From an uncultured Spirochaetota bacterium (GTDB lineage: Bacteria; Spirochaetota; Spirochaetia; Treponematales; UBA12059), in NCBI GenBank assembly GCA_937873275.1, contig CALMRC010000043.1, forward strand, positions 1 to 36,650: a stretch of 36,650 bases of DNA. The letters run 5' to 3'. A model generated the notes under the pieces. The model worked only from the letters and a program-made list of their open reading frames with translations, did not search any database and had not been told where the DNA came from. Positions within the stretch are counted from its first letter, which is position 1; every line of letters starts with the position of its first letter. Positions 3,868-30,058 of the stretch are shown in pieces. The translations under genes were made by a program, and so were the position numbers.

Positions 3868-5310
3868 CTATGTAACCCGAGACGGATCCGTACCCAGGTA
3901 GGACGACGGTCCGGGTTCCGGGCTCCCCCGCAGCAGCTTGAGCCTGGACCGCAGGCGCCGCTCGCCGATGCCCAGGGCGCGGGCCGCCTCGCTCTGGTTG
4001 CCCCCGGCCGCGTCCAGGGCCCGGGTGATCAGGTCCAGTTCGAAGCGGCCGACGAGCTCGTCGTAGGTGCCGACCGTCGGCACCGACACTCCGGACGGCT
4101 CTCCCGGGGAATCCGGGGCCTCCTCGGGGGATTCCAGCCGGATGTCCTCCAGGGTCAGGATCTCGCGTCGCGTCATCAACACGGCCCGTTCAAGGGTGTT
4201 CTCGAGTTCCCGCACGTTGCCCGGGAAGGGATGCCGAAGGAGGGCCGCCAGGGCTTCCCGGCTTATGCCCCGAACGGTCTTGCCGTATTCCCTCGCGAAC
4301 TTGTCCGTGAACCATGCGGCCAGGGCGGCGATATCTTCCCTCCGCTCCCGGAGGGGCGGTATCTCGATGGGAATCACGTTCAGCCGCCAATACAGGTCGG
4401 ACCGGAACTGGCCCCGCTCCACCAGTTTCCGCAGGTCCCGGTTGGTCGCGGCGATGATGCGTACGTCCAGGGTCCTCGTCGCGTTCTCGCCGACCCGCTG
4501 GATCTGCCCGAACTGGAGGGCCCGGAGGAGCTTCACCTGGATGGACATCGGGATGTCCCCCACCTCGTCGATGAAGAGGCTGCCGCCGTCCCCCTCGGCG
4601 AAGCGGCCCTCCCGGGCCTGGTCGGCCCCCGTGAACGCGCCTTTCACGTGGCCGAAGAGCTCGCTCTCCATGAGGGTTTCCGGGAGGGCGGCTATGTTGA
4701 CGGTGACGAAGGGCCTGTCGCGGCGTGCGCTGGAGTTGTGGATCAGCCGGGCGATCAGCTCCTTGCCGGTGCCGCTCTCCCCGGTGATCAGCACCGTGGC
4801 GGAGCTGTCCCGGGATCGGGAGACCGTGTTCAGGACTTCCCTCATCCGGCCGTCGGCGTGGATGAAGGGCACGTCCCCGAGTTCGGAACCCAGGAAGGGA
4901 GTCAACTCGTCGTTCTCGTGCTCGATGAGGGATTTCTCGAACACCCGGATGAACAGGTGCTCCAGGGCCTCGGTGGTGACGGGCTTGACCAGGTAATCCT
5001 CGCCCCCGGCCTTCAGGATGCTGACCGCGTCCCGGGTATCCTCGAAGGCGGTCATGATGACGACGGATACGGTCGGGTTGGAGCGCTTGACGCTTTTAAG
5101 AACGTCCAGGCCGTTCCCGTCGGGCAGCCGGTAGTCCGACAGGACCAGGTCGATCGCCCGGGATTCCAGGACCTCGAGGGCGCCCCGCACCGTCTCCGCC
5201 GTATGCAGTTCGATGCGGGGATACTCGATCCGGCCGACGATGGCCTTGATCCGTTCCAGCAGGGTGAAGTCGTCGTCCACCGCGAGGACGCAGAACCGGG
5301 TGCCTTCCAT
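3868..5310 (-). CDS. NtrC-family sigma54-dependent response regulator (receiver, AAA+, Fis-type HTH)
   Basis: Receiver VDDDF...DLVLSDYRLPDGNGLDVL...KP; Walker A GESGTGKE; GAFTGA sigma54-contact loop (ELFGHVKGAFTGADQ); FIDEVGDIP; C-terminal NQSEAARALGIGERRLRSRLK. Confidence 0.97.
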   Translation of the reverse strand: MEGTRFCVLAVDDDFTLLERIKAIVGRIEYPRIELHTAETVRGALEVLESRAIDLVLSDYRLPDGNGLDVLKSVKRSNPTVSVVIMTAFEDTRDAVSILKAGGEDYLVKPVTTEALEHLFIRVFEKSLIEHENDELTPFLGSELGDVPFIHADGRMREVLNTVSRSRDSSATVLITGESGTGKELIARLIHNSSARRDRPFVTVNIAALPETLMESELFGHVKGAFTGADQAREGRFAEGDGGSLFIDEVGDIPMSIQVKLLRALQFGQIQRVGENATRTLDVRIIAATNRDLRKLVERGQFRSDLYWRLNVIPIEIPPLRERREDIAALAAWFTDKFAREYGKTVRGISREALAALLRHPFPGNVRELENTLERAVLMTRREILTLEDIRLESPEEAPDSPGEPSGVSVPTVGTYDELVGRFELDLITRALDAAGGNQSEAARALGIGERRLRSRLKLLRGSPEPGPSSYLGTDPSRVT

Positions 5311-5349: not shown

Positions 5350-5390
5350 CGATTCGACATTCGGGTCGAATCGTTCGACGGATGCGTCGA
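5350..5390. promoter_or_regulatory. Tandem palindromic enhancer-like sites (candidate UAS for the NtrC-type regulator)
   Basis: CGATTCGAC-ATTCGG-GTCGAATCG (9-bp arms) and TCGACG-GATG-CGTCGA (6-bp arms), centres 21 bp apart. Confidence 0.65.
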
Positions 5391-5504
5391 GACCTGACCC
5401 TCTTCCGGAAGGCTTTCAGGCGGTCGGACGCCGGAGGTCCCGGGTTTTTACGCCATTTTATTATATAGTAGATACTTAGTTCTCCGAGGTCGAGCGGTGT
5501 TTTT

Positions 5505-5519
5505 TGGCATGAAACCTGC
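5505..5519 (+). promoter_or_regulatory. sigma54 -24/-12 promoter candidate upstream of the giant Ig-repeat gene
   Basis: TGGCAT-GAAAC-CTGC with the 12-nt GG-to-GC spacing of TGGCAC-N5-TTGC. Confidence 0.7.
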
Positions 5520-5646
5520 TTGTGATTATTTGAGCACGAAATGGCTCCCCGCTGGGGGCACGGCACGCCGCCCGCCCGGAGGCGTGCGATATGTATAACG
5601 GCTATATAGGAAAGCGTCCGATAATGATTCCGGGTAGAGGTGCGCG

Positions 5647-8600
5647 ATGAGGTCGAACAAGAGCCGTTTCCCGTACGTACTCCATATCTTTACGATACTG
5701 CTGTTCCTGTTCGGGGGTTGTCGGAATCCCTTTTCCCCGGGCTTGGGGGAGAAGATCGATATCTCGGCTCCGTCGATCAGCCTTGCCAGCCACCTTCCGG
5801 GAGAGTACCTCCAGGATCAGGTCGTTTTTTCCGGTTCCGCCACGGACGACCAGAAGATCTCCGCGGTCCGGATTTCCTTCAACGGAGGGGCCTCCTGGAA
5901 CGACGTGACCTCCTACGACGACTCGACCAAGGTATGGCGCCATGACCTGGACACCACGTCGTACCCAAACGGGTCCTTCCGGATCCGGCTTCGCGCGATC
6001 GACGAGGCGGGAAAACGCACGGATACGGAGGATTTGGTCTTCACCATCGACAATCTCCCGCCCCAGATAGAGATCCAGGTGCCCGCGATCAATCCCGCTA
6101 CGTACGATCCGCTCCTGCCGCCGGAAATCGCCATGAACGGCGTCGTCATCGGCATCGTGACGGACCTGCAGGGAGTGGCGGTCGGATACCCGCAGATGAA
6201 GTTCTGGAAGGAGACGGATTCCGAGCCGGACTGGGACGACGGCATCGGCGTGACCGAGGTCAAGAAGACGACCGACTTCCGGTACCGTCTTTCCGACGCG
6301 CATCCCGACGAGGTCGGGATCTTCAACCTGAGGCTCCGGGCGGTGGACGTCAGCGGCGGCGAGACGATCGTTCCGCCCCCGGCCCAGGATCCGTATAAAG
6401 TGAAGGTCATCAGCGGGGATGTCCTTCCCGTCATAAACCTGGCCTTCACCTCCGGGGACGTGAACGTCGTGGCCGGGGGTACCTACGCGGGGGAAGCTTT
6501 CTCCTTCCGCGTGACCGCGAATCACCCCAACGGGATCGACGTCGTGACCCTCCACCGGACCCCGGAGGGCGGATCGACGGATCCCGTCATCTGGGCCGCG
6601 GATGACCTGGGATCCCCGACCCGCACCCTGGACAGTCCGGTCCTTGCCGTGGCGCCCGACGGGTCTGACGACGGGACCTACGAGTTCCGCATCGAGGCGG
6701 TCAGCGCCACCGGGAGCGTCGCGACCTACTACAAGACCGTCATCGTGGACGCCACCCCGCCCAGCGTGGAGATTACGAACCTTTCGCCCACGGTGGTGGA
6801 CGATTCCGATCCCGGCAACCCCGTGGAATACGTGAACGGAGTGATCCAGATCAACGCCCTGGCGACGGATGCGAATGCCGTGCTGGGCAGCAAATGGTGG
6901 ATGCTTCCGTCCGCAGATTCTGCCCCCGCGGACTACGACAGCCCCGGGGGAACCGCGTTCGCCACCTCGACCCCGTCCCTTTCCCTGGATTCCACATCCC
7001 TGCTGGACGGCACCGAGTACACGTTCTACATCATCTCCCGGGACCGGGCCCGGAACGACACCCGGATCAGCCGCGTCCTCTCGGTCAGCCAGGGGACGGA
7101 TATCCCTACGGCGGAGCTCACGGACATCGACACCTCCGTCACCACGGCGGCCGGGGCCGGAGTCGGAGGGGTGAACCTCCTGGATACCAACGCCCGAATC
7201 CGGGGCATCCTCTCGGACGACGACCGGGTCGACGTCTCCTCCGTGACCCTGAGCCTGAACGGGACGCCCGTGGGAACCCTCGATTCCCTGGGGCTTCCGG
7301 GGCGCAGCGTTTCCTTCTCCCACAACGTGGATTCCCTGGGGCAGGGAGTCCACTACTTCGAGCTCGAGTTCGGCGACGACGCCTCCGTCAAGAGCGGGCA
7401 GCCCTCGGCCTCCGCCTCGATCGGTCCCGTGTACTTCGTGATCGACACTTCCCCGCCCGCGATCTCCGTCGATTCCCCCGGGGCGGGGACCTTCCAGAGG
7501 GCATCCTTCACCCTTTCCGGCACAGCGGCGGACGCGAACGGCCTGGCCACGGTTACTCCGGGAGGGTCGGACGAGTACATCGAGGTAGCCTTCCCCGAGG
7601 CGCCGGGGACTTGGGTCCAGGTGCCGGTCGATCCCGGGACCCACGCGTGGTCCGTAGCCGTGGGGGGAGGGCCGTCGGCTCTCTTCGGCGGTTCCTACGA
7701 AGGTCCCCGTTCGGTCTCCCTCCGAGCCCGGGACCGGTTCGGGAAGCTCTCCACGGCTTCCTTCGCCTTCACCGTGGACACGGCGGCTCCGACCGCGGTC
7801 GTCTCCCTGCCCGCGGCGGACGCCTGGCTATCGGGAGCCTCGGACTCCGTCCAGGGTACGTCATCCGACGCGACCAGCTCCATATCCCAGGTCCGGTTCT
7901 GGGTCGGCGACGAGGGAGCCTCCCCGCCCGCGGATGCGGGAACCTGGACCCTGGCCTCGGGAACGACGAGTTGGAACGGCTCCTTGAACCTTTCCGCCCT
8001 GGGGGAGGGCCGTAAATCGATCCATGCCCGGTCCCGGGACGCCGCCGGCAACTGGAGCGTATCCGCGGTCCGGACCTTCGGAATCGACCAGGCCATCCCT
8101 GGTATCACGGAAACGGCCGTGGGTACGGCGAGCGCGGGACGCAACGCGGCCTTCAGCCTGGGCGGGCTCCTGACGGACTCCAACGCCCTCGCGAGCCTGA
8201 CCGTCACCCAGGCCAAGGGCACGGACCCCGCGGTGGTGCTGCAGGGCGGATCCGTGACGGGCACCTCCCAGGCCTGGTCGATCGCCGACCTCCCCCGGGA
8301 CCCCGCATCCCCGGCGGACTTCCTCCTGGCGGACGGGGTCTACGCCTACGCCCTGACCGTCACGGACGCCGCGGGAAAGACCTCTGTCCTCGGGCGGACG
8401 ATCACCGTGGACCTCACGGGGCCGGACGTGACCATAACCGCCCCGACGCCGGGTGCCGCCGTCCAGGGCACCGCCCTGTCCGCGAGCGGCACCGCCGCGG
8501 ATTTCGGCGACGTGAGCCCCATAGCCGAAACACGGTACGCCGTGACCGTACCCCCGGCCCTGCCGCCCGCGGATTACCTGGCATGGACCGCCGCGTCGGG

Positions 8601-11600
8601 CGCCGCCTCCTGGACTGCGGCTCTCAGCTTCCTGCCCTCCGAGGAAGGCCCTCGGATGCTCCATGTCGTCGCCCGGGACTCGGCGGGCAACTGGAGCCCC
8701 GCCCCGGCCACCGCGGCCTTCAACCTGGACCAGGCGCCGCCGGAGGTCCAAGCCTTCGGGTTCGGGGCGGGAACCGTCAACACCGTCGGAGGCACCGGCT
8801 ACGCCAAGGGGGACTTCTCCTTCTCCTTCACGGCCTACGACAGCAACGCCCTGACCAACGTCCGGGTGAGTCGGAACGGCACCCAGATCTTCAACGGGGA
8901 CTACTCGACCTCGAGCCAGCCCGTCACGGTCAATGAGACGGTGGGCGGTCCCGGACTGTCCGACGGCATCTACGAGTACGTCATCACCGTGACGGACGTC
9001 GTAGGCAAGACCGCGACCCTGACCCGCAGCGTCGTCGTGGATACCGCGGGGCCCCTCGCGGAGATCGTCAGCCTCACCCCGGTGCTTTCGATAAGCGGAA
9101 CCGATTACGTGAACGGCACGATCCGTTTCACCGCCTCCGCCTCGGACGGGAACGGGCTGACCGGGGTCAAGTGGTGGCTTCTGCCGGCCGCGGACCCCGC
9201 TCCGGCGGATTACGACGCCGCCGGCGGCACCGCCTTCGGGGCGGCTCCGTACTCGGCCACGGTGAATACGACGAGCCTGTCCGATTCGACGGACTATGTC
9301 CTGTACGTGACGGCAAGGGACCGGGCTCTCAACGACACCCAGACGACCCGGGCCGTCACGGTGGAGCAGTACACGGACATCCCCGCGGTGACCCTGACCT
9401 ATCCCGGCTCGGGCGCCTTCGTGGGCGCCGGGTATACGGTGCGGGGTACGGTTACGGACGACGACGGCGTGGCCCCGGCCACGGTCCAGGTGAGCTACCA
9501 CGACGGAAGCGCGTGGAGCGCCTGGGTTTCCGCCACGGTCACGGGGACCGGACGGGAAGTGTCCTTCACTTATGTCCTTCCGATCGGAATCGGGGTGGAC
9601 GGACCCAAGCAGGTGAGGGCCCGGGCCGACGACGACGCGGCCGCCAAACTCGGGGGCGATCCCGCGGTTTCGGGAGCATCCCCCGACGTGTCGTTCACCC
9701 TCGACACCCTTCCTCCCGTGGCCTCCATCGCGGTGCCCGCAGCGGCCTCGGCCCGCAGGGTCACCTTCACGGTCTCCGGGGAAGTGGTGGAACAGAACCT
9801 GGACACCCTGCGCCTGAGCCTCGACGGCGGGCCGCAGGTCAACGCGGCGGCGGTCGGAGCCGGGGAGACCAAGACCTGGTCCTACGACCTTCCGGGTGCG
9901 GAATTCGACGCCCTCGCCGAAGGCCCCCATACGATCTCCGTGGAAGCGGTGGACCGGGTGGGCCGAAGCCAAACGGTGCAGCGTGTGTTCTACAAGGATA
10001 CTTCGGGACCGGCGATATCCTTCACCTCCATCGTGGAGGGGGGAAATACCATCGTAACCGAGACCTCCCCGGTCCTGAGGGGCGCCTTCTCGGACGAGTA
10101 CTCCGACATCGCCGCGAACTTCGAGTATCGGCTCGACTCCTCCCTGGATACGGATCCGTGGAACTCCGCGGCGGTCACGGGGAGCGGCAAGTCCGTCACC
10201 TGGGCCGTGCCCGTGGATGCCCTGGCGGACGGCAGTCATACCATAGACATCCGGATCCTGGACTCGGTCGGGAACCTCCGAACCAAGGAGGACGTGGCCT
10301 TCCGTCTGGACCGGGCGCTTCCGGTCATCAACATCTCGACGCCGGTTTCCGGAGGGATCTACGGAGTCGTCGCGGCGGGTCCCGCGTTCACCCTTTCCGG
10401 GACCGCCCAGGACGCCAACCTCGTCTCGGTCAGCGCCAAGCTGGGGTCGGGGCCGGAGACGGACATCACCGGGGCCGTCGCGGGCGGCACGAGCGTCTGG
10501 AGTTACCCCGTGGCAAAGGCGGACTTCGACGCCCTGTCCGACGGGGGCGGCACGATTACCTTGACGGCCGCGGATTCCGCGGGACGTACGTCCCAGGTGA
10601 CGTGGACATTCACGAAGGACACGACGGGGCCGGAGGCGGCCTTTAACAACCTGGACCTCGGCGGCACGACCGTCCTGCAGGACAGTCAACCCCGTGTCCA
10701 GGGCGGCCTCTCCGACTCGTACGGCGTCGCCTCCATGGAAAGTCGGGTGGAGCGCTACGATTACGCCGGGACCGTCTGGATCCTGGTGCAGGACTGGACT
10801 TCCTTGGGGGCTGCGGGAGGCCAAACCGTCGTCTCCTGGTCCAAGGACCTGGGAACGGCGGGCCTCAACCTGGCCGACGGGAGGTACCGGATCGCGGTCC
10901 GGGCTTCCGACCGGGCGTCGCCGGACGCGAACGTCCGTACGACCGCGGCCGTGGAATTCCGGATCGACCGGAACAACCCGTCCCTGACCCTGAACCCCGG
11001 CGGTCTCTTCCAACGGGTCGATTTTCCCGTCAGCGGCACGGCCTCGGACCTGAACACCGTGGCGTCCGTGCGGGCCAAGGTCGGGGACGGGGACTTCTCT
11101 TCCGGGACGGTGACATCCGCGGTGACTTCGAACGGGTACGCCACCTGGACGGTGACGGTCCCGACCGGCGGGCTTGCCGCCGGATCGTATACGGTGTACG
11201 TGGAGGCGGAGGACGGGGCCGGCCGGAAAAGCCAGCTGACCCGGGAGTTCAGCTTCGACAGCGCTCCCCCGGTCATCTCCGTCAGCGAGCCCCCGAACGG
11301 AAGCCGGGTCAACGGGCTCGTGACCATCCGGGGCACTTCCTCGGACGACAACGCCGTGGCCCTGGTCCAATACCGGATCGGGAACGGTGCGACCACCTGG
11401 CAGACCGCGGGGTTGGGGGGAGGGCTCTACAGCTGGAGCTACACCTTCTCGAACATCAACACCTACGCCAACACCTCGGACGTGACGGAGGTCGACCCGC
11501 TGACCGGTCTTCCCGCCTCGGGGACGAACGTCTGGGCCCTGCCGTTCCAGGTCCGGGTCACGGACGTGGCGGGCAACGCCGCGGAGGAGCTGTCCTACCG

Positions 11601-14600
11601 GCTCCTGGTGGATCCCGACATGGACGCGCCGGAAGTGACCGTCATCAGCCCGATGAACGACCAGATCGTCGGCGGCGAAGTCCGCGTGTCCGGGTACGCA
11701 TCCGACGACGACTGGGTGCGGAGCGTCGAAGTGCGGGTTGACCCTACCGGTACGGGAACCTCCTTCGAAGCTTGGGAGCCCGCCACCCTGGTGAACCAGG
11801 GAACCCAGGTAAACTGGTTCAAGAACATAAACACCTCCGGGGAATTGAACCCCGCGGCCGGAACGATCCGGGACGTCCGGATCCAGGTACGGGCCTACGA
11901 CTCCAAGGATTACGGGGTGACCCCGGGCATAACGGGGGACACGGTCGAGCTGAACGTCAAGTTCGACAGCGGTGTGCCGGTCATCCAGGACGTACGGGTG
12001 TTCCGGAACGGTTCGGAGGTCGAGTACGCGGCGGGCGTCCGGGCGGCGGGGGTCTTCTCGGTCCGGGCGAGCGTACGGGACGAGGGCGGCATCGCCAGCA
12101 TCAAGTGGCGCCGGGAAGGCCAGACGGTCTTCACGAACATACTGGCCGATCCCGCGTACACGACCCCGCCGACGGAACGGACCGCCGGGGCCTTCGAGGT
12201 CGGGCGGAAGTACCTGATCACCTCGATCGGCACGACGAACTTCATGGCGATCGGGGCCAGCAGCAATACCGTCGGGATCTCGTTCCTTGCCGAGGGGGCG
12301 GGAACAGGTACCGGCACCGCCTACGAGGCTACCGGGCCCCTGGCGGATCCCACCAACCAATACTTCCAGTACGAGGTTGAGATCGAGATCGACTCGACGA
12401 CCGTCAACGCCGGACAGTACGCGGACACCACGGGCTTCTTCTCCCTGGACCTCCAGGCCACGGACAATGCGACTCCCACGCCGTACCTGACCCAGGCGAG
12501 CCTGAACATCCAGATCGACAACTACTTCCCCTTCGGGGAGTACAGCTCCTCCGCGAGAGCCTCCACGGCGAATTACTACATCCAGGGCCGGGCCTGGGAT
12601 TCCGGGGTCGGTTCGGGAAGCATCCAGGGCATCGACCGGGTCGTGGTCTACTTCTACAAGAACGGAGCGTACATCGCCCCCGACGGAGGGGTTTTCAACG
12701 GCACCACCCGCACCCTCAAGGACATGACCGCGGGCGGAACCCTCCAGACCGTCGTCTTCCCGGCGGACGCCGCGTCGGGAATCGTCATCGACGGCAACGA
12801 GGTGACCTCGGATGTGGACGGCAGCGGATATATTGAAGGCTTCACCGACGACGGGATCTACAAGAACTGGTACGCCGTATACGACACGACCCAGCTGGGC
12901 GACGGTCCCATGGACCTGCACTACGTCGTCATCGACCGGGCCGGGAACGCGACCCGGTACGTCCAGGGGATCTACATCCGGAACAACGCGCCCCGGATCA
13001 CCGGGATCGTCATCGGAACCGACGTGGACGGCGACGGGACGGTCGGGGACATCGCCTCCGGGGAGAGCCGCCGGATCGCGGCGGCTTACGGGACGACGAA
13101 CTTCACGGTCCGCAACGAGCGCCTGGCCTTCGAGGTCGAGACGTCGGGCGGGAATCTTCCGAACCGCTACTCCATCGGCTATGTGACCGGCACGGCCTCC
13201 GTCGGGGCGGCGGCGCTGGTTCCCGGGAGCGTCTATACGATCGAGACCGCCGGAACCACCAACTGGACCCTCCTGGGCGCCCCGGACAATCTGGCGGGTA
13301 CGACCTTCGTGGCCGGAAGCCCGGGGACCGGGACCGGAACCGCGACGGTATATACGATCGCCCAGAAGAACATCGCGCCGTATACCTCCGCGGCCCTGAC
13401 CCTGGACGATTTCACGGCCATGCCCGATACGGTCACGGCCAACGGTGCGCGCTTCGTGGTGAAGGTGTACGACACGACCGTAGCCGCGGGAACGGAGGCG
13501 GATCAGCTGGCCGACGCGGTCGTAGTAGGGCTCAATATCGACAATGTGGACGATATAGCGCCGGTCATCGCGGCCGCGCCCGTCGGCCGCGAATACTCGT
13601 CCCCGGCCAGCTTCTCCGACGCAGACAAGACGTTGAAAGATGTGGACGACTACACGGAGAACCTCGTCACCACCGGCAGCGGAACTTCCCTGGTGAAACA
13701 CGGATACGCGCAGTACGCCCTGCATTCCGGGGACGGCGACGCGGACATCAGCGGAAAGGTCGTGTTCCTGGGCAAGGCGGCGGACAACCAGAGGATCGCC
13801 CGAATCACGGCCCGGATCCCCGGGTACAACGGGGGAGCCGCCTTCGACATCGCCCTCTGGGACGGATCGGCCCTGTCGGCGGCCTCGGCGGGCCGTACCC
13901 TGGCCGACGTGGCCGCGGGGACCTCGGACTGGGGTTTCGAGGCGGAGGCCGGCAGCCAGGCGGTGACGGAGACCTACGGTCACGTGCTCAACTGGAAGTT
14001 CGCCTGGAACTCCGCGGCCCTCTCCACCGTGACCGCCCCGAACGTAACCGTGACCTTCACGGCCTACGACGCGGGACCCTCGGGGGGCAACCCCTCCTCC
14101 GGGGACCTTGCCGTGGACGTGGTGCCGTACATCACTAGGATCTCCAATCCCGCGGGGCAGGGCGGTCTGTCGGACACGGTGATCCGGAGCTCCCGCGGGC
14201 GGTACAGCATCGAGTACCATGCCACGAACTATTTCCGGGCCAGCGGGTTCAACCTCTCGGGGGCGGTCGCGCATGTAAGCTCCACGGCCATCGACACCCA
14301 GCCCGGGACGACGAATCTCACCGTCGCCGCGACGACGACGACGACCGTCGATATCCGTAAGAACTTCAGCCTTTCCGGATACCTGACGCTCTTCGTGAAC
14401 GGCATGCCTAGCATCAACAATCTGAACGATCCCGATCCGGCGTACCACTCGGAAGCCTCTGTAAGCGATCCCCGTTCGACCTTGTGGACCGATGATCGGT
14501 ATCTGACGGTATGGAACCTGACCCAGGTCCTTCCGGCGGTCGCCAACCAGACCTTCTACTACCCGTCCATGGTCATGAACGGCGACCAGCCCATCTTCAG

Positions 14601-15756
14601 CTACGCCAACGACAACGACGGGTATACCTACAGGACCACGGGGGACGCGGCCTCCTCCCAGCGGGGCGGCATCTGGTACGAGCGTCACACGGCCCTGGCC
14701 CGGTCGGCGGGCGGGATCTACTGGATCCTTTCAGTCCAGGACGCCGTAGGGACCGGAGGCATCGGATACCTCTACCTCAACCGGGACCGGAACGTAAACG
14801 CCCTCCTTGGAGACACCCAGAACAACAACCACTTCGAGATCATAGGCCTGGACTACACGAGCCGGCAGATGAACCGGATCCGGTATCCCAAGCTCATCGT
14901 CGAGGGGCCGGACAACGCGACGAACATCTACATCTCCTACTTCGACGCCCATCCCTCCCGCCGGGAGCTGTCCTTCGTCTCCTTCCAGGCGTCCACCGCG
15001 ACGGCCTCGAATCTCACCCAGCCCTCGAACGACGCGGCCCGGGCCGCCCAGGTCCAGGTCATCCCGAACACGGCCAACGCCAGCAGCGAGTACTTCGACA
15101 TGGTCCGGATCGGGACGGGCGAGGTCGCGGTGGCCTACTTCGACGAGGCCGCCGGAGTCCTGAAGCTCCAATATTCGGGAGACGCTTGGAACGCGAACAA
15201 CCAGAGCGGAGCCGGGACCTGGACGGAGTTGACCGTGGACGACAGCATCCTGACGGGCTCCCACGTATCCATGACCGTCGGGCAGAGGAGCGGTACGACC
15301 TATCTCTACCTGGCGTACCACGACGCCGCCGAGACGGCCCTGAAATTCGCGCAAATCGATTGGTCCACCAAGGCCGTCACGAAAGCGGTGGTGGACAACC
15401 GGTTCTCCGTGGGTACTCGGACCAACGTCTTCGTGATCGATGAACTGCCCTACGTCTCCTTCTATTCCGATTCGTACAGCGGCACCCGGAATTCCATCCG
15501 CCTGGCCTACCCCGTGGCCGCCAACGGCCGAAGCGCGGCGGAAAACCTTCTGCAGCCCGGGGCCGACGCCGACGAGGAATACACGGGCAACTGGGAAGTC
15601 GCCGCGGTACCGGCCGTGACGGTCCCCAAGGGAGGGATCGAGCAGTTCAATCGTACCCAGTTGAACCAGTACACGAATGGGGCGTCCGTCCTGCCCGTCG
15701 TCGGCTGGCTTGCCGACCGGATCGAGTACGCCAAGCTCCAACCGACGGCACCGTGA
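5647..15756 (+). CDS. Giant (3369 aa) putative lipoprotein with ~14-15 Ig-like repeat domains and a distinct C-terminal domain
   Basis: SD AGAGG then ATG; lipobox-like LFLFGGC; repeated DTxPPxISV...xSGTAxDxNGxxxV...RARDxAGN Ig-like signatures through most of the length. Confidence 0.95.
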   Translation: MRSNKSRFPYVLHIFTILLFLFGGCRNPFSPGLGEKIDISAPSISLASHLPGEYLQDQVVFSGSATDDQKISAVRISFNGGASWNDVTSYDDSTKVWRHDLDTTSYPNGSFRIRLRAIDEAGKRTDTEDLVFTIDNLPPQIEIQVPAINPATYDPLLPPEIAMNGVVIGIVTDLQGVAVGYPQMKFWKETDSEPDWDDGIGVTEVKKTTDFRYRLSDAHPDEVGIFNLRLRAVDVSGGETIVPPPAQDPYKVKVISGDVLPVINLAFTSGDVNVVAGGTYAGEAFSFRVTANHPNGIDVVTLHRTPEGGSTDPVIWAADDLGSPTRTLDSPVLAVAPDGSDDGTYEFRIEAVSATGSVATYYKTVIVDATPPSVEITNLSPTVVDDSDPGNPVEYVNGVIQINALATDANAVLGSKWWMLPSADSAPADYDSPGGTAFATSTPSLSLDSTSLLDGTEYTFYIISRDRARNDTRISRVLSVSQGTDIPTAELTDIDTSVTTAAGAGVGGVNLLDTNARIRGILSDDDRVDVSSVTLSLNGTPVGTLDSLGLPGRSVSFSHNVDSLGQGVHYFELEFGDDASVKSGQPSASASIGPVYFVIDTSPPAISVDSPGAGTFQRASFTLSGTAADANGLATVTPGGSDEYIEVAFPEAPGTWVQVPVDPGTHAWSVAVGGGPSALFGGSYEGPRSVSLRARDRFGKLSTASFAFTVDTAAPTAVVSLPAADAWLSGASDSVQGTSSDATSSISQVRFWVGDEGASPPADAGTWTLASGTTSWNGSLNLSALGEGRKSIHARSRDAAGNWSVSAVRTFGIDQAIPGITETAVGTASAGRNAAFSLGGLLTDSNALASLTVTQAKGTDPAVVLQGGSVTGTSQAWSIADLPRDPASPADFLLADGVYAYALTVTDAAGKTSVLGRTITVDLTGPDVTITAPTPGAAVQGTALSASGTAADFGDVSPIAETRYAVTVPPALPPADYLAWTAASGAASWTAALSFLPSEEGPRMLHVVARDSAGNWSPAPATAAFNLDQAPPEVQAFGFGAGTVNTVGGTGYAKGDFSFSFTAYDSNALTNVRVSRNGTQIFNGDYSTSSQPVTVNETVGGPGLSDGIYEYVITVTDVVGKTATLTRSVVVDTAGPLAEIVSLTPVLSISGTDYVNGTIRFTASASDGNGLTGVKWWLLPAADPAPADYDAAGGTAFGAAPYSATVNTTSLSDSTDYVLYVTARDRALNDTQTTRAVTVEQYTDIPAVTLTYPGSGAFVGAGYTVRGTVTDDDGVAPATVQVSYHDGSAWSAWVSATVTGTGREVSFTYVLPIGIGVDGPKQVRARADDDAAAKLGGDPAVSGASPDVSFTLDTLPPVASIAVPAAASARRVTFTVSGEVVEQNLDTLRLSLDGGPQVNAAAVGAGETKTWSYDLPGAEFDALAEGPHTISVEAVDRVGRSQTVQRVFYKDTSGPAISFTSIVEGGNTIVTETSPVLRGAFSDEYSDIAANFEYRLDSSLDTDPWNSAAVTGSGKSVTWAVPVDALADGSHTIDIRILDSVGNLRTKEDVAFRLDRALPVINISTPVSGGIYGVVAAGPAFTLSGTAQDANLVSVSAKLGSGPETDITGAVAGGTSVWSYPVAKADFDALSDGGGTITLTAADSAGRTSQVTWTFTKDTTGPEAAFNNLDLGGTTVLQDSQPRVQGGLSDSYGVASMESRVERYDYAGTVWILVQDWTSLGAAGGQTVVSWSKDLGTAGLNLADGRYRIAVRASDRASPDANVRTTAAVEFRIDRNNPSLTLNPGGLFQRVDFPVSGTASDLNTVASVRAKVGDGDFSSGTVTSAVTSNGYATWTVTVPTGGLAAGSYTVYVEAEDGAGRKSQLTREFSFDSAPPVISVSEPPNGSRVNGLVTIRGTSSDDNAVALVQYRIGNGATTWQTAGLGGGLYSWSYTFSNINTYANTSDVTEVDPLTGLPASGTNVWALPFQVRVTDVAGNAAEELSYRLLVDPDMDAPEVTVISPMNDQIVGGEVRVSGYASDDDWVRSVEVRVDPTGTGTSFEAWEPATLVNQGTQVNWFKNINTSGELNPAAGTIRDVRIQVRAYDSKDYGVTPGITGDTVELNVKFDSGVPVIQDVRVFRNGSEVEYAAGVRAAGVFSVRASVRDEGGIASIKWRREGQTVFTNILADPAYTTPPTERTAGAFEVGRKYLITSIGTTNFMAIGASSNTVGISFLAEGAGTGTGTAYEATGPLADPTNQYFQYEVEIEIDSTTVNAGQYADTTGFFSLDLQATDNATPTPYLTQASLNIQIDNYFPFGEYSSSARASTANYYIQGRAWDSGVGSGSIQGIDRVVVYFYKNGAYIAPDGGVFNGTTRTLKDMTAGGTLQTVVFPADAASGIVIDGNEVTSDVDGSGYIEGFTDDGIYKNWYAVYDTTQLGDGPMDLHYVVIDRAGNATRYVQGIYIRNNAPRITGIVIGTDVDGDGTVGDIASGESRRIAAAYGTTNFTVRNERLAFEVETSGGNLPNRYSIGYVTGTASVGAAALVPGSVYTIETAGTTNWTLLGAPDNLAGTTFVAGSPGTGTGTATVYTIAQKNIAPYTSAALTLDDFTAMPDTVTANGARFVVKVYDTTVAAGTEADQLADAVVVGLNIDNVDDIAPVIAAAPVGREYSSPASFSDADKTLKDVDDYTENLVTTGSGTSLVKHGYAQYALHSGDGDADISGKVVFLGKAADNQRIARITARIPGYNGGAAFDIALWDGSALSAASAGRTLADVAAGTSDWGFEAEAGSQAVTETYGHVLNWKFAWNSAALSTVTAPNVTVTFTAYDAGPSGGNPSSGDLAVDVVPYITRISNPAGQGGLSDTVIRSSRGRYSIEYHATNYFRASGFNLSGAVAHVSSTAIDTQPGTTNLTVAATTTTTVDIRKNFSLSGYLTLFVNGMPSINNLNDPDPAYHSEASVSDPRSTLWTDDRYLTVWNLTQVLPAVANQTFYYPSMVMNGDQPIFSYANDNDGYTYRTTGDAASSQRGGIWYERHTALARSAGGIYWILSVQDAVGTGGIGYLYLNRDRNVNALLGDTQNNNHFEIIGLDYTSRQMNRIRYPKLIVEGPDNATNIYISYFDAHPSRRELSFVSFQASTATASNLTQPSNDAARAAQVQVIPNTANASSEYFDMVRIGTGEVAVAYFDEAAGVLKLQYSGDAWNANNQSGAGTWTELTVDDSILTGSHVSMTVGQRSGTTYLYLAYHDAAETALKFAQIDWSTKAVTKAVVDNRFSVGTRTNVFVIDELPYVSFYSDSYSGTRNSIRLAYPVAANGRSAAENLLQPGADADEEYTGNWEVAAVPAVTVPKGGIEQFNRTQLNQYTNGASVLPVVGWLADRIEYAKLQPTAP
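12190..12329 (+). repeat. Embedded GTTNF-IGA-N-G-F-AxGxGTGTGTA protein motif, copy 1
   Basis: FEVGRKYLITSIGTTNFMAIGASSNTVGISFLAEGAGTGTGTAYE. Confidence 0.7.
13213..13356 (+). repeat. Embedded GTTNW-LGA-N-G-F-AGxPGTGTGTA protein motif, copy 2
   Basis: LVPGSVYTIETAGTTNWTLLGAPDNLAGTTFVAGSPGTGTGTATVYT. Confidence 0.7.
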
Positions 15757-15769
15757 CGGGAGGACGACG

Positions 15770-16831
15770 GTGAAACCATCCGTACGACATGCCGAACGGC
15801 GGGCCGGAAAACTCCCGTCGGCAACTCCGGCCGGAGCCTCACATTTCTGGAAGATTGCGGCCGTTTCGACCCTGGTTCTTCTCATCCTGGCCGCGGGATA
15901 CTTCCTGCTCCGGTCTCGGCCGGTCTTCCTGGTGCAGGCGGACTACGCCGCGGCCTGGGAGAAACTTCTCCGGGAGGACCCCCGCGCGCCCGGGTGGCGG
16001 ATCGTGACGTACGATCCCCGGGAAGGGCCGCCCTCGAGCCGGGGGCTTCGTGGTTACAGGATCTCCCCGGACAGGGAACGCCGGGCCCCTTCGGACCGGA
16101 CGGCCTCGACCGGATCGGCGGAGCCCGTCCCCGTCACGATACCGCGCCGGGGCCTCTCCCGGGACCCGGCGCCGCCGGACGGAGTTCTGCCCCTGGCGGT
16201 GGATCCGTGGATGGTCTTCCGCCGCCATTCCGGCCCGCCTCCGTCGCGGGTCTTCCTGGAAAAGGGCGGATCCGGAGGGGTCGTCCTGCTTCCGGGCGGG
16301 GAGCCCGAAGCCCTCCGTGCCTGGGCGGCCCAGGAACTTCAGAACCGGCCCGGGGCGTTCCCCGCGGAGCCGGGTCCCTGGCTCGAACGAGCGGGCCTTC
16401 TTGCCCGGGACGGGCGCTTCCAGCCCGGAGCCCTCACCGCGCGCTGGGATGACGTCCTTTCCCGGCTTCTAGGCCCCGGCGTCTCCTGGTTGTACGCCCC
16501 CTTGAGCCGGGTGCAGACCCTCTCGGGGGACCGGACGAGCCTCCTGGAAGCCGATCCCTTCCCGCCGCGGGAAGGCTGGAACGAGTTCGGCCTGCAGGCC
16601 CGCATCCTCTGGGCCGTGCCCCTGGGGGAAGGAACACCCCGGGGATTCACGGCTTCCGCGGCCCGTTGGCTTCGGGATCCGGCCACCCAGACCCGTCTCG
16701 GGGCGATCCTGGACTGGGCACCCGCCCATCGGGACGCCCGGGCGTCGAACCCCCTGGCGCGGGCCGCCCAGGAGGCCTGGCTCGAAAGCACCTACGTTTG
16801 GGAGGCTCCCGAATATGTTCACATCGACTGA
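15770..16831 (+). CDS. Hypothetical single-pass membrane-anchored protein
   Basis: GTG start 13 nt after the giant gene stop with SD GGGAGGACG; N-terminal TM helix (IAAVSTLVLLILAAGYFLL); Pro/Arg-rich remainder. Confidence 0.8.
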   Translation: MKPSVRHAERRAGKLPSATPAGASHFWKIAAVSTLVLLILAAGYFLLRSRPVFLVQADYAAAWEKLLREDPRAPGWRIVTYDPREGPPSSRGLRGYRISPDRERRAPSDRTASTGSAEPVPVTIPRRGLSRDPAPPDGVLPLAVDPWMVFRRHSGPPPSRVFLEKGGSGGVVLLPGGEPEALRAWAAQELQNRPGAFPAEPGPWLERAGLLARDGRFQPGALTARWDDVLSRLLGPGVSWLYAPLSRVQTLSGDRTSLLEADPFPPREGWNEFGLQARILWAVPLGEGTPRGFTASAARWLRDPATQTRLGAILDWAPAHRDARASNPLARAAQEAWLESTYVWEAPEYVHID

Positions 16832-19800
16832 CGTACGCCTGGCGCTCCCGGCTCGATTCGCGGCGCGCTGGATTTTTGCGGCGCTGATCCTCGCTTCCGC
16901 CGCGCCTGCCCGGGCGAACGGCACTCCCGAGGATACCTGGCAGGAGGCGACGGGTACGGAGGTCTGGCTTCGGGAGTTCGACTTGTCCGGCGCGAAGCCC
17001 GGGACCCACAACGTCGTAATCCGTGCCCGGGACTCGGCGGGAAACGAAGCCCTGGTAGGACCCTACAACATCCGTATCGATCCCTCCGTGGGTCTGCCGA
17101 CGGTCCGGATCATCTACCCCGAGAAAGGCACCGTCCTGCGCAGGGACGTCCACATCGTGGGCGTGGCGGGCGGACGCATCGGCATCCAGACGGTGGAGAT
17201 CAAGCTCGACGGGGGCGGGTACTCCGCCGCGAAGGGTTCGGAGTACTGGAGCGCTTCCGTGGACGCGGCGTCCTTGCCGGACGGTCGGCACATCCTGACG
17301 GCCCGGGCCGTGGATCCCCGGGGGACCCCGGGGCCGGAATCCTCGGTGTCCTTCGTCCTGGACCGGGCGCCTCCCTCCGTCCGGATCCGATCCCACGAGT
17401 CCGGGGCCCTGATCCGCGGGAACGTCCAATTCGAGGGGATCGCGGATGACGCGAACGGCATCGCCCGGCTCTCCTTGAGCGTCGACGGCGGCAAGACCTT
17501 CCAGGACCTCGGCTTCCGGGGCGCCCGGGGGGAGACGGAGGCTGGATTCTCTTTCCCCGTCCAGAGCGGAAAGCTTCCGGACGGGGCCGCGATCTACCAC
17601 ATCCGGGCGGAGGACGGAACGGGAGCCGTGTCGGTCAACCCCGTCCTATTCTTCGTGGACAACAAATCCCCGGAGCTGGAGATCCTTTGGCCTGAAAAAG
17701 GGTCGAGCGTCGCGGGCACCTTTCGGGTCACCGGAACGATGAAGGACGTGGTGGGGGTTCAAAGCCTTTCCTGCGAAGTCGGGAAGACCGTGCTGGAAAT
17801 CGAGATGCGTCCCGGCGACCCCTACTGGACGGCGGACATTCCGGTGCCCCCGGGAACCGGGCGATCCGTCGATCTCCGGATCGTCGCGACCGACCGGAGC
17901 GGCAACCGGACCACGGTCTCCCGCGGGTTCGTGAACGAGCTCGATTCCTCGATACCGAGAGTCCGGATACTCCATCCCGGCGAGGCGGGACTCGCGGCGT
18001 TTCCGGCGGACGGTGCGATCTACGGGCAGGTTCTCGGGGGACCCGGAGTGGACACCGTCAAGGTCGAGGGGGGGAAGTCCTATCCCGCCAAGCCGGGTTT
18101 TCGCATCCCTTCCTCGGACATCGGGCCGGGGCGCGGCGAACTCCGCCTCCAGGCTTCGGGACCCGAGGCGGCCCAGGGCGAAGTCCTTAAGCTCCGGATC
18201 GTCCGTCCCGCTCCCCCCTCGGGGACCGTGCCCCCTCCTTCTCCGCCGCCTTCGAGCGTGACGGTGACGTCCCCGGCACCCTATTCGTATCAGCGGGGGG
18301 CCTTCGACCTCTCCGGGACATCCGAGGCTCCGGCCGGTTCCCGTCTGGAATTCCGTACGGCGCCTACGGAGCCCTGGCAGGAGATCGCCCCGGGCGCGGA
18401 CGGCAGGTTCTCCGTCCGGGTCGCTCCGGACGCCCTGCCCGAGGGACCGATGCATCTGGAACTTCGGACGGTGACCGACGGAATCGCGGCGGAGCCGGTC
18501 TACCATCCGGTCAACCGGTACACTTCGGCCCCGGAGATCCGCATCCATTCCCCCCGGTCCGGGGAAACGGTGAACGGCAACGTGACCGTCTCCGGGGATG
18601 TCGTCACGGCCGCCCCGATCGCGGAGCTTGCGTATTCCCTGGACGGCAAGACCTTCCGGGCTCTCCCGGGTATCCCCGCCTCCTACGGTGCCGCATTCTC
18701 CATGGTGGTAGACTTCACGGTCTTGCAGAAGGCCGGTGGAAGCGTCGGCATCCGGGCCGTGGACACGGCGGGCAACTCTTCGACCGCCGCGATACCCGTG
18801 ACCGTGGACTCTTCGGGGGACCTGCCCTCGATCCAGTTGAACCTTCCCGTCGACGGGGCCGTGGTGACCGGGGATTTCGACATTTCCGGAATGGCCTTCG
18901 ACGACGACGGTGTGGCGGCCGTCCATTGGCGGATCGGAGAGGGAGCCTACTCCCGCCTGGCCGTGGAGCAGAGCTTCCGGATCCCGGTTCCCCTGACTTC
19001 CGTCCGGGACGGCGAGCGGAGGATCGAGGTCTACGCGGAGGACGTCTACGGCCGGGTCGGGCCGCCCGCGTCGGCCGTCGTCCGGGTCAGTACCGGCGCT
19101 CCGACGGTGGAGGTCACCTCCCCGGGTCTCGAGGCGTACAATCGGGGCACCGTGATCCTGCGGGGGGCCGCTCGGGATCCGAACGGCATCGCCGGGATCC
19201 GGGTATCCCTGGACAACGGAGCCACCTTCCAGAGCGCGGAGGGCGCCGAATCCTGGAGCCTGTCCCTCAATACCGGGGCCTACAAGGACGGAGTGTATTC
19301 CGTCCTCGTGGTGGCGGCGGATTCCTTCGGCGTGGAGTCGAGGATCTCCTCCCTCCTCAACATCGACAACACGCCGCCCTTGATTTCCCTCGGGGAGCCC
19401 GCGGACGGCCGGATCACGGAACCCGCTCTCCGCGTCTCGGGCCAGACCAGCGACAATACGGGGGTCGAGTCCCTGGCCTTCGAGGTCACCCCCGTGCCGG
19501 GGACGGGGACCCAGCGCGGCCTTCGGATCGACGTCAAGCCGAGGCTTGTGATCCTGGAAACCCTGGACGTCTCCTCCCTTCCGGGGGGGAAGTACAATCT
19601 CCGGATGATCGCCTCCGACGCGGCGGGCAACTCGTCCGTCCTGGTACGGGGCATCGAGCTCGTGAAGGAGGCGGGTGCGTATCGGGTTGTCCTTCTGGAT
19701 CCCCTTCCGGGGGTGACCCATACGGGTCCTCTGACGGTTTCCGGCCGGGTGACCGGGCCCAGCCTTCCCGCCTCGGTCGGGATATTCTCGGGCCCGTCCC

Positions 19801-20888
19801 GAGCCGCGGATGCCGAGGTCGACCGGTTCGGGTATTTCCGGCAAACCCTGGAGGGCATTCCCGAGGAGGGCCGCCTGGTTCTCCGGGCGGGCTTCGACAC
19901 CCCCGCGGGGGAGAAGGTCCGAAGCGAGGAACATGCCGTCATCCTGGAACCCTACGGCCCCGTCCTGACCATCTCCAGCCATGGCGCCGGGGACGCGGTG
20001 ACCGGACGGCCCTGGCTCAGCGGTACGGCGGGAATTCGCCTCTCCCCCGGGGAGACGGAGGAGGCGGGCAAGAAGGCCGCGAGACGGTTCGAGGTTTCCC
20101 GGGTGGAGGTGAGCCTGGACAACGGCCGGTCTTTCCAGCCGGCTCAGGGGACTTCGGACTGGAAGTTCCGGCTGGAAACCGCCGAGCTTCCACGGGGGCC
20201 CCTGCCCGTGTTGGTCCGGGCGGAGTACGCGGACGGCCGTTCCGCGGTCCGGAGGATTCTACTGACCGTGGATACCGCTCCCCCCGAGGTGACCCTGGCG
20301 GCTCCCCAGGAGGGAAGCCTCCACGCGGAGTCCCTCTTGATGTTCGGGACCGCTTCGGACGACTACGGCCTGGAGACCGTGGAGGTCAACCTACGAGCCG
20401 GCGACAAGGCGGGATACTCGATCCCCCAATTCATCCAGGGATTGTACCTGGACACCCATGCCCTGGGCGCGACCTACGGGGACGTGGGGTTGGGGGTCAG
20501 TTTCTTCGACAACAACGTGAAGCTCCAGCTCCAGGCGGGATTGGCGCCCCCGGGTCGTTTCACCGGAACGGTGTTCGGGGCCAAGCTTCTGGCCAACGTG
20601 CTCTACCTGCCCTTCGATTATTTTCTCGGTCCGGACTGGTCGTTTTTCTCCATGTCCCTGGCCCTGGGGGCCAATTTCTCCTACTTCACCATGGACTCCG
20701 GCAGCGAGCCCCTGGTCATGTCCTCGGTCCTGGTTCAGTGGGAGTTCGCACGGTTCCAGTTCGCCGAATGGAAGGCCTTCCGTACCTTCTCCCTGTACGC
20801 GGAACCGAATCTCTGGTTCGCCGCCTCGGACGTGGAAGCCGGAGCCATCTTCAAGCTGGCCTTCGGATTCCGGGTCGGCATTTTTTAG
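16815..20888 (+). CDS. 1357-aa exported Ig-like repeat protein with C-terminal outer-membrane beta-barrel-like domain
   Basis: ATG overlaps previous CDS by 17 nt with SD GGGAGG; signal peptide; repeated Ig-like units; last ~160 aa alternate like strands and end FKLAFGFRVGIF (terminal Phe). Confidence 0.92.
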   Translation: MFTSTDVRLALPARFAARWIFAALILASAAPARANGTPEDTWQEATGTEVWLREFDLSGAKPGTHNVVIRARDSAGNEALVGPYNIRIDPSVGLPTVRIIYPEKGTVLRRDVHIVGVAGGRIGIQTVEIKLDGGGYSAAKGSEYWSASVDAASLPDGRHILTARAVDPRGTPGPESSVSFVLDRAPPSVRIRSHESGALIRGNVQFEGIADDANGIARLSLSVDGGKTFQDLGFRGARGETEAGFSFPVQSGKLPDGAAIYHIRAEDGTGAVSVNPVLFFVDNKSPELEILWPEKGSSVAGTFRVTGTMKDVVGVQSLSCEVGKTVLEIEMRPGDPYWTADIPVPPGTGRSVDLRIVATDRSGNRTTVSRGFVNELDSSIPRVRILHPGEAGLAAFPADGAIYGQVLGGPGVDTVKVEGGKSYPAKPGFRIPSSDIGPGRGELRLQASGPEAAQGEVLKLRIVRPAPPSGTVPPPSPPPSSVTVTSPAPYSYQRGAFDLSGTSEAPAGSRLEFRTAPTEPWQEIAPGADGRFSVRVAPDALPEGPMHLELRTVTDGIAAEPVYHPVNRYTSAPEIRIHSPRSGETVNGNVTVSGDVVTAAPIAELAYSLDGKTFRALPGIPASYGAAFSMVVDFTVLQKAGGSVGIRAVDTAGNSSTAAIPVTVDSSGDLPSIQLNLPVDGAVVTGDFDISGMAFDDDGVAAVHWRIGEGAYSRLAVEQSFRIPVPLTSVRDGERRIEVYAEDVYGRVGPPASAVVRVSTGAPTVEVTSPGLEAYNRGTVILRGAARDPNGIAGIRVSLDNGATFQSAEGAESWSLSLNTGAYKDGVYSVLVVAADSFGVESRISSLLNIDNTPPLISLGEPADGRITEPALRVSGQTSDNTGVESLAFEVTPVPGTGTQRGLRIDVKPRLVILETLDVSSLPGGKYNLRMIASDAAGNSSVLVRGIELVKEAGAYRVVLLDPLPGVTHTGPLTVSGRVTGPSLPASVGIFSGPSRAADAEVDRFGYFRQTLEGIPEEGRLVLRAGFDTPAGEKVRSEEHAVILEPYGPVLTISSHGAGDAVTGRPWLSGTAGIRLSPGETEEAGKKAARRFEVSRVEVSLDNGRSFQPAQGTSDWKFRLETAELPRGPLPVLVRAEYADGRSAVRRILLTVDTAPPEVTLAAPQEGSLHAESLLMFGTASDDYGLETVEVNLRAGDKAGYSIPQFIQGLYLDTHALGATYGDVGLGVSFFDNNVKLQLQAGLAPPGRFTGTVFGAKLLANVLYLPFDYFLGPDWSFFSMSLALGANFSYFTMDSGSEPLVMSSVLVQWEFARFQFAEWKAFRTFSLYAEPNLWFAASDVEAGAIFKLAFGFRVGIF

Positions 20889-27933: not shown

Positions 27934-27970
27934 CCCGTCCACTGTTCACCGTCCACCGTCCACAGTTCTT
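27934..27970 (+). repeat. NGTYYAC heptad repeat, forward orientation
   Basis: CGTCCAC TGTTCAC CGTCCAC CGTCCAC AG; abuts the -35 box at 27969. Confidence 0.75.
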
Positions 27971-27998
27971 GACCCCGCCCTCCCGCCGCCCCTATACT
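27969..27998 (+). promoter_or_regulatory. sigma70-type promoter for the cNMP-GGDEF operon
   Basis: TTGACC (27969-27974), 18-nt spacer, TATACT (27993-27998), then AAAGGAGG and ATG at 28020. Confidence 0.7.
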
Positions 27999-28019
27999 CC
28001 CCGAAAGGAGGACCGGAGT

Positions 28020-29063
28020 ATGCCGCAGGCTTCCTCGGGACCCGCCGCGGACCCCGGGCTTCCGGGGATGCTGAGAAAGGCGGAAATCTTCTCGTCCCTG
28101 CTGGACGACGACCTGGCCTACGCGGCCTCCCGGGTCGGCATCCTGCGTCTCTCCAAGGGACAGCGCCTCTTCGAGGCGGGCCAGAAGGCGTCCCGGTTCT
28201 ACGTGATCCGCTCCGGCGGCATCCGGGTATTCCGTCCCCGTCCGGACGGCGGGGAGGACGACATGGCCCTCTTCGCGTCCGGGGACGTCCTGGGGGACTT
28301 CGACTTCGCCCGGGGGGCCGAGTACGACGCCGGGGCCGAGGCGGTGGAGGACACGGAGCTCGTCGTCTTCCCCCGCATGGATCTCACCTTCGACGACCTC
28401 GCCCGGGAGCGGCCGGACGCCGCGGCCCGGCTGCTCCTTCGCTCCCTGGCCATGATCTCCGGCCGGCTGCGGGCCACCCACAAGCTGATATCCGAGAACG
28501 CACCCTGGGTGCGGGAACTCCACCGGCAGGCCTACGAGGACCCGGGCACCGGGCTCTGGTCCAAGGCCTTCCTGGACGAGGAGCTTCCCCGGTACCTCGT
28601 CTCCCCGACGGCCCTCGTCCTGATCAAGCCGGACCGGTTCAAGATTCTGGTGGATTCCCGGGGCCACGCCGCCGGGGACGAGGCCATGGCGCGCATCGCG
28701 GCGGTCCTCCAGTCCTCGGTCCGGGCCCTGGGCCGGGGCTGGGCGATCCGGGTGCGCAGCAACGAGACCGCCGTCGTGGTGCCGGGCTGCCCGCGGGAGA
28801 CCGCCGCGGAGCTGGCCCGGTCCGTGGCGGACGGGATCGCGGACCTGGAGCCCGTTCCGGCGGCCCGAGGCGTCCCCTTCTTCGAATTCACGGCCTCGGT
28901 GGTCCATTCCGTCTGGCCCCGGGACGGGGATGACTGGAAGGAACTTTTCCAGAGATCCCAGGAATGCCTGATGGCCGTCTGGGGCGAGGGGGGCCGGCGG
29001 ATCCTGGCGGTACCCCCGGGACTCCGGACTTCGCCGTCCTCCTCCGCGGGGAGGGTCCCGTGA
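28020..29063 (+). CDS. Cyclic-nucleotide-binding domain plus degenerate GGDEF domain protein
   Basis: LRLSKGQRLFEAGQKASRFYVIRSGGIRVFRP cNMP fold; DPGTGLWSKAFLDEEL, IKPDRFKILVDSRGHAAGDEAMARIAAVLQ aligns to GGDEF domains but GGDEF is replaced by RSNET. Confidence 0.88.
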   Translation: MPQASSGPAADPGLPGMLRKAEIFSSLLDDDLAYAASRVGILRLSKGQRLFEAGQKASRFYVIRSGGIRVFRPRPDGGEDDMALFASGDVLGDFDFARGAEYDAGAEAVEDTELVVFPRMDLTFDDLARERPDAAARLLLRSLAMISGRLRATHKLISENAPWVRELHRQAYEDPGTGLWSKAFLDEELPRYLVSPTALVLIKPDRFKILVDSRGHAAGDEAMARIAAVLQSSVRALGRGWAIRVRSNETAVVVPGCPRETAAELARSVADGIADLEPVPAARGVPFFEFTASVVHSVWPRDGDDWKELFQRSQECLMAVWGEGGRRILAVPPGLRTSPSSSAGRVP

Positions 29064-30058
29064 GCCGCCTGACGGATTTCCTGGGGTCAACCGCCCTCTT
29101 CTCCGGCATGAGCGGCCTGGAACTCAAGGCGGTCGCGGAGCTCCTCAAGCGGCGGGAATGCCCCCGGGATACCGTGATCTTCCGGGAGGGCGAGCGGGGC
29201 CGGGAGCTCTATATCGTCCTGTCCGGCAAGGTCGGGTCCTTCGTGACCCAATCGGACGGAACCCGCCGCAGGATCTACGAGTTCGGGCCGGGGCGCTTCT
29301 TCGGGGAGATGGCCATCGTGGAGGGCGAGCCCCGCTCGGCGACCTGTTGGGCCGAGGAGGATACGACCCTCCTGGTGCTGGAGGGGATCGATTTCTACCG
29401 CCTGGTCTTCGACTATCCGATGATCGGGCTCAAGCTCCTGTCCTCCATCGCCCGGGTGATGGTCTCCTGGCTGAACGAGTCCTCCCGCTTCCTGAACGAC
29501 CTGGTCCGGTGGGGGGAGACCGCCCGGAGGCGGGCCGTGGAGGACGCCCTCACGGGGCTCTTCAACCGCCGCTTCCTGGAGGAGACCCTGGCCAACCGCT
29601 TCACCGCGGGCCTGGGATCCGGGCGGCGCCTGGCCCTGGTCATGCTCGACCTGGACCACTTCCGGGACATCAACGGCGCCTTCGGGCCGGCGGCCGGGGA
29701 CGCGGCGATCAAGGCCGCGGGGGCGGCCTTCCGCCAGGCCCTCCGGGACGGGGACGTGGCCGCCCGCCTGTCCGGGGACGAATTCGCCTTCCTCCTGCCG
29801 AACACGGGCATGGACGAGGCCCTGGCCGTGGCCGAGCGCCTCCGGAGGCGGGCGGAGGAAGTCCGCCTGGAGCTCCGGGCCGCCGCGGGAGGCCCGGCCT
29901 CGAAGGTTCGGATCACCGCGAGCCTGGGGGTCGCGGTGGCCCCGGACCACGCCGGATCCCCGGACGCCCTGATCGCCACCTCGGACCGGGCCCTATACGC
30001 CGCCAAGGAATCCGGCCGCAATCGCGTGGCAGGACCGAGAGGACCCTCCCGGTCATGA
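29060..30058 (+). CDS. Cyclic-nucleotide-binding domain plus GGDEF (SGDEF) diguanylate cyclase-like protein
   Basis: GTG start overlapping TGA of upstream gene; cNMP fold (GRELYIVLSGKVGSFVTQSDGTRRRIYEFGPGRFFGEMAIVEGEPRSAT); DALTGLFNRRFLEE, LDLDHFRDINGAFG, RLSGDEFAFLLP, ALYAAKESGRNRV. Confidence 0.95.
   Translation: MSRLTDFLGSTALFSGMSGLELKAVAELLKRRECPRDTVIFREGERGRELYIVLSGKVGSFVTQSDGTRRRIYEFGPGRFFGEMAIVEGEPRSATCWAEEDTTLLVLEGIDFYRLVFDYPMIGLKLLSSIARVMVSWLNESSRFLNDLVRWGETARRRAVEDALTGLFNRRFLEETLANRFTAGLGSGRRLALVMLDLDHFRDINGAFGPAAGDAAIKAAGAAFRQALRDGDVAARLSGDEFAFLLPNTGMDEALAVAERLRRRAEEVRLELRAAAGGPASKVRITASLGVAVAPDHAGSPDALIATSDRALYAAKESGRNRVAGPRGPSRS

Follow-up and report, generated by a model that had tools for sequence, protein, structure and literature searches.

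A predicted sigma-54 promoter between a divergent NtrC-type regulator and a giant Ig-domain lipoprotein gene in an uncultured spirochaete

Introduction

How is the gene for a lipoprotein of 3369 amino acids switched on in an uncultured member of the Treponematales? In the window (the whole stretch of 36,650 nt that was analysed) such a gene lies next to a divergently transcribed regulatory gene, and the original prediction placed a sigma-54 promoter between an NtrC-type activator and this presumed target. We have examined the site, its neighbours and its counterparts in related genomes.

Promoter element and flanking genes

The sequence TGGCATGAAACCTGC is found at 5505–5519 on the + strand, 127 nt ahead of the ATG at 5647. 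It reads TGGCAT-GAAAC-CTGC and, as had been reported, departs from TGGCAC-N5-TTGC at two positions while keeping the GG/GC spacing, so that the GG and GC dinucleotides stand at their fixed distance within TGGCAY-N5-YTGC. Both deviations, T as the sixth base and C as the opening base of the -12 element, are frequent in the other sites of the genus. The complete -24/-12 element, TTTTGGCATGAAACCTGCT, is annotated here at 5502–5520 (+). Taking 5519 as -12, transcription is predicted from spacing to start at about 5531 (+), 12 nt downstream of the GC in the -12 element, and the leader to the ATG at 5647 would be about 116 nt long, in agreement with the roughly 115 nt first estimated.

The motif alone proves nothing because its raw count in the window is at chance level, with 11 matches carrying up to two mismatches against 16.2 ± 4.2 expected. 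The genome likewise contains 14 exact matches to TGGCAYN5YTGCW, fewer than the 19 obtained with the pattern reversed. Motif counting as proof was dropped. The evidence for the site is its position and its conservation, not the number of matches.

The downstream gene (5647–15756, +) encodes the giant protein, which possesses Big_13 and Big_7 domains. Its description as a lipoprotein is borne out by a lipobox-like FGGC at the N-terminus (MRSNKSRFPYVLHIFTILLFLFGGC, by inspection), the Cys of which is conserved in homologs. The second gene (15770–16831, +) specifies a 353 amino acid protein with a likely single N-terminal membrane helix; Pfam gave no family, and the fold model was unusable (mean pLDDT 36). 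The third (16815–20888, +) encodes a 1357 amino acid Ig-domain protein (Big_7, E 7e-52). All three genes are syntenic in G001, one of two other species of the genus represented among the genomes searched (G001 and G002), where the giant protein is 91% identical. A homolog of the second gene lies directly upstream of the giant gene in G050, and one of the third lies near the giant gene in G010 and G015. The second and third genes probably share the operon of the giant gene.

On the other side of the site, gene 3868–5310 (-) encodes the presumed activator, an NtrC/AtoC-type response regulator. It contains a receiver (Response_reg), a sigma-54-interacting AAA+ domain (Sigma54_activat, E 8e-68) with GAFTGA at residue 224, a lid and a Fis-type helix-turn-helix (HTH_8), which is the domain architecture of an NtrC-type enhancer-binding protein. 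The site does lie, as proposed, between an activator of this type and a lipoprotein gene. Orthologs of the activator in G001 and G002 are 81–82% identical and divergent from the same giant gene, and its best named match is in Spirochaetales bacterium SZUA-414 (55% identity), which in this analysis is the basis for regarding the organism as probably a spirochaete. Two genomes that belong to another family (G061 and G025) encode activator relatives (about 50% identity), which are followed by sigma-54-like sites before small secreted proteins, with apparent pilus-chaperone-type genes nearby. The scanned proteins of the window included no recognisable histidine kinase or other sensor kinase. A tandem pair of proteins of the type cyclic-nucleotide-binding plus GGDEF was seen at 27969–30058.

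The genome carries a single full-length rpoN, a 468-codon open frame (E 2e-53) with the RpoN box ARRTVAKYR, which settles one of the checks attached to the original prediction. It also contains 15 strong enhancer-binding-protein genes.

Conservation within the genus

The site is kept in G001 and G002, in the same divergent arrangement of activator and giant gene; the three species carry TTTTGGCATGAAACCTGCTT, TTTTGGCATGAAACCTGCTT and CTTTGGCATGCAACCTGCTC, respectively. In an alignment of the three spacers, 39% of columns outside the elements are invariant, while the promoter (5502–5520) has 17 of 19 columns invariant (P 7e-6) and is a sliding-window maximum. A consensus scan of the spacer gave no sigma-70 promoter.

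Two 18-bp palindromes of the form TTCGAC-N6-GTCGAA, candidate halves of an enhancer, are situated about 150–170 bp upstream of the predicted start. The one at 5353–5370 (TTCGAC-ATTCGG-GTCGAA) is exact, the other reads TTCGAC-GGATGC-GTCGAG (5374–5391), and their centres are 21 bp apart, about two turns of the helix. Their half-sites are conserved in the three species (22 of 24 columns invariant). No better doublet of this kind occurs in the window, and among TTCGAC-N6-GTCGAA matches with at most one mismatch the genome has no other close pair. The locus holds both an activator gene and a conserved palindrome doublet, and the latter is likely an enhancer for the adjacent response regulator. Ahead of the giant gene of G004, a palindrome doublet of different sequence (TTGTCG/CGACAA) occurs some 140–170 bp upstream of the site and is also a candidate enhancer.

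Genome-wide distribution of the motif

Position separates the genomic matches from the controls. Twelve of the 14 TGGCAYN5YTGCW matches lie in intergenic DNA, compared with 2 of 19 when the pattern is reversed (Fisher p = 3e-5; the gene calls came from a simple codon-model gene finder written for this analysis and are crude), and 11 of these 12 sit 15–127 nt upstream of a start codon on the same strand. Five of the 14 matches are no more than 650 nt from an enhancer-binding-protein gene (binomial P ~1e-6). In the two sister species all 30 matches inspected were intergenic, many of them ahead of orthologs of the same genes.

A sigma-54 matrix was built from 34 genus sites, excluding that of this gene and its orthologs. 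The site scored 26.0 bits, inside the range of the other sites (19–38), although any exact match scores inflated because the matrix sites were chosen by consensus. The next best score in the window was 3.3, and none of 80 simulated strands equalled the site. A matrix scan of the genome had been suggested originally; the matrix was run over the window, and the genome was covered by pattern searches instead.

Some matches lie ahead of genes of other kinds. Perfect sites precede two sigma-70-family (RpoS/RpoD-like) sigma factor genes by 15–22 nt and are kept within the genus; on this sequence pattern, a cascade from sigma-54 to a sigma-70-type factor outside Borrelia is possible. TGGCACGGAAGTTGCT occurs in the 16S rRNA leader of this genome, just downstream of what is by eye a good sigma-70 promoter, and the 16-mer is also present in both sister genomes with no gene called downstream; these matches are probably coincidence inside a conserved leader. 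Matches of the type TGGCACAAACCTTGCA in tRNA regions of G001 and G002 appear to be part of a hairpin and were rejected as promoters.

Recurrence beyond the genus

The N-terminal family of the giant protein (lipobox Cys followed by GLG-x-KxD) was detected in 40 of 81 relatives (E <= 1e-12). Thirty giant loci were inspected, and ten have a perfect TGGCAYN5YTGCW upstream on the correct strand, where composition predicts about 0.02 for 300 nt; in the other 20 a perfect site was absent within 600 nt. Those with the site belong to five genera of one family (G000, G001, G002, G004, G005, G008, G010 and G015) and two genera of a second (G032 and G041). rpoN is present in all ten of these genomes and in 79 of the 81 relatives. 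In G010 and G015 two ABC transporters, the activator and the giant gene follow one another in one direction, with the site 53 nt before the ATG; in the other genera with the site the activator is located elsewhere or differently arranged. Judged by sequence, promoters of the same type are predicted before the genes of related giants in seven genera or more.

Conserved leader block

The stretch just before the ATG (5594–5646) has 49 of 53 columns invariant (P 3e-16 against the spacer background). Within it a block of 48 nt (5596–5643, +), which contains CCGATAAT, shows no difference among the three species of the genus and is the most conserved part of the spacer, above the promoter. Rfam gave no match to it and folding showed nothing unusual. 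It is single copy in the genome, which disposes of a repeated genomic element or a common promoter. For a putative sigma-28 promoter its CCGATAA would fit, but the TAA-like -35 is by eye about 2 nt too far away. Each of the three species also has a short mini-ORF (ATGATTCCGGGTAGAGGTGC...) that crosses the block, its terminal TGA overlapping the ATG. The block might act as a second promoter or post-transcriptionally, or it might form a translational start region to which the mini-ORF is coupled.

Proposed mechanism and alternatives

We consider it very probable that 5502–5520 is a sigma-54 promoter which is opened by the divergent regulator at the palindromes and drives the giant lipoprotein gene. 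RNA polymerase with sigma-54 would form a closed complex on 5502–5520. The response regulator, once activated, probably through phosphorylation by a histidine kinase encoded elsewhere, would bind the palindromes at 5353–5391, assemble an AAA+ oligomer and, after DNA looping, contact sigma-54 via GAFTGA, whereupon the promoter would open. Transcription would then proceed through the giant gene and probably also the next two genes.

That the match is fortuitous, with the giant gene read from some other promoter, is highly improbable. The chance-level counts in window and genome are what such a reading would lead one to expect, but it is opposed by the position of the site, its conservation in three species, its matrix score, the neighbouring activator and its recurrence before homologous genes. 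Together with rpoN and the synteny in the genus, these observations support the original identification of the site as a sigma-54 promoter. A real sigma-54 promoter could also be served by another of the 15 enhancer-binding proteins. The giant genes of G032 and G041 have sites without this activator adjoining, and the activators in the genus of G010 and G015 belong to an ABC-transporter-linked set; nevertheless, the divergent arrangement and the palindromes are kept in the genus and the doublet is unique in the genome, and we regard control by a different activator as quite unlikely.

Somewhat less unlikely, though still a minority view, is that the gene has two promoters, the sigma-54 site and one in 5596–5643, in which CCGATAAT resembles a sigma-28/sigma-70 -10 and transcripts would start about 20 nt before the ATG. 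The 48 nucleotides identical across three species would be accounted for, and a similar TATAT-N9-CCGATAAT, resembling part of the leader block, is found in G010 and G015. There, however, it lies about 110 nt upstream of the sigma-54 site, the opposite side from its position here, and no good -35 was found by eye or by consensus scan. Moreover, TATAT-N8-12-CCGATAA occurs once in the genome and is therefore not a widely used promoter. A broader proposal, which we offer tentatively as possible rather than probable, is that sigma-54 control of the GLG-type giants is ancestral in the order, and that the 48-nt leader of this genus adds a second control layer (a regulatory RNA or promoter). If true, such a layer would act on a costly 3369 amino acid product.

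Comparison with known systems

The arrangement proposed here, with the divergent regulator acting on its neighbour's sigma-54 promoter, has parallels in other bacteria. In Desulfovibrio vulgaris activators are usually divergent from their sigma-54 promoters, and there too inverted repeats are the predicted binding sites, but the targets and the repeat sequence differ (PMC4641369). As in the EbpA-RpoN system of Leptospira interrogans, spirochaete lipoprotein genes stand behind sigma-54 promoters that each require an enhancer-binding protein; EbpA, however, has GAF domains where the activator here has a receiver, and it controls amtB and two lipoprotein genes, which that work does not present as encoding giant Ig-domain lipoproteins (PMC12655853). 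The Rrp2-RpoN-RpoS pathway of Borrelia burgdorferi likewise joins an NtrC-type response regulator and sigma-54 in the control of surface lipoproteins, but reaches them indirectly via RpoS (PMC3037356, PMC6719511), whereas here sigma-54 would act on the lipoprotein gene directly, at its own promoter, with a dedicated activator encoded alongside. A further likeness to Borrelia is that sigma-54 sites precede RpoS/RpoD-like sigma factors. Sigma-54 has been termed a controller of the bacterial exterior, lipoproteins included, in a survey in which spirochaetes average only 1–2 activators (PMC3162934), against the 15 strong ones in this genome.

In a literature search of incomplete coverage, giant Ig lipoproteins were nowhere reported to be under sigma-54 control. 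Spirochaetia are mentioned in a cross-phylum survey of 2025, but a text search of it yielded no such lipoproteins (PMC12316311). The promoter itself is an ordinary one of its type, which is known; what appears to be unreported is the association of sigma-54 with giant lipoproteins across the order. The locus offers a testable switch, consisting of promoter, enhancer and activator, for giant surface-type lipoproteins that roughly half of the searched relatives possess. The analysis further points to a sigma-54 regulon of considerable size in a lineage other than Borrelia and Leptospira, one that includes sites before two sigma-70-family sigma factors.
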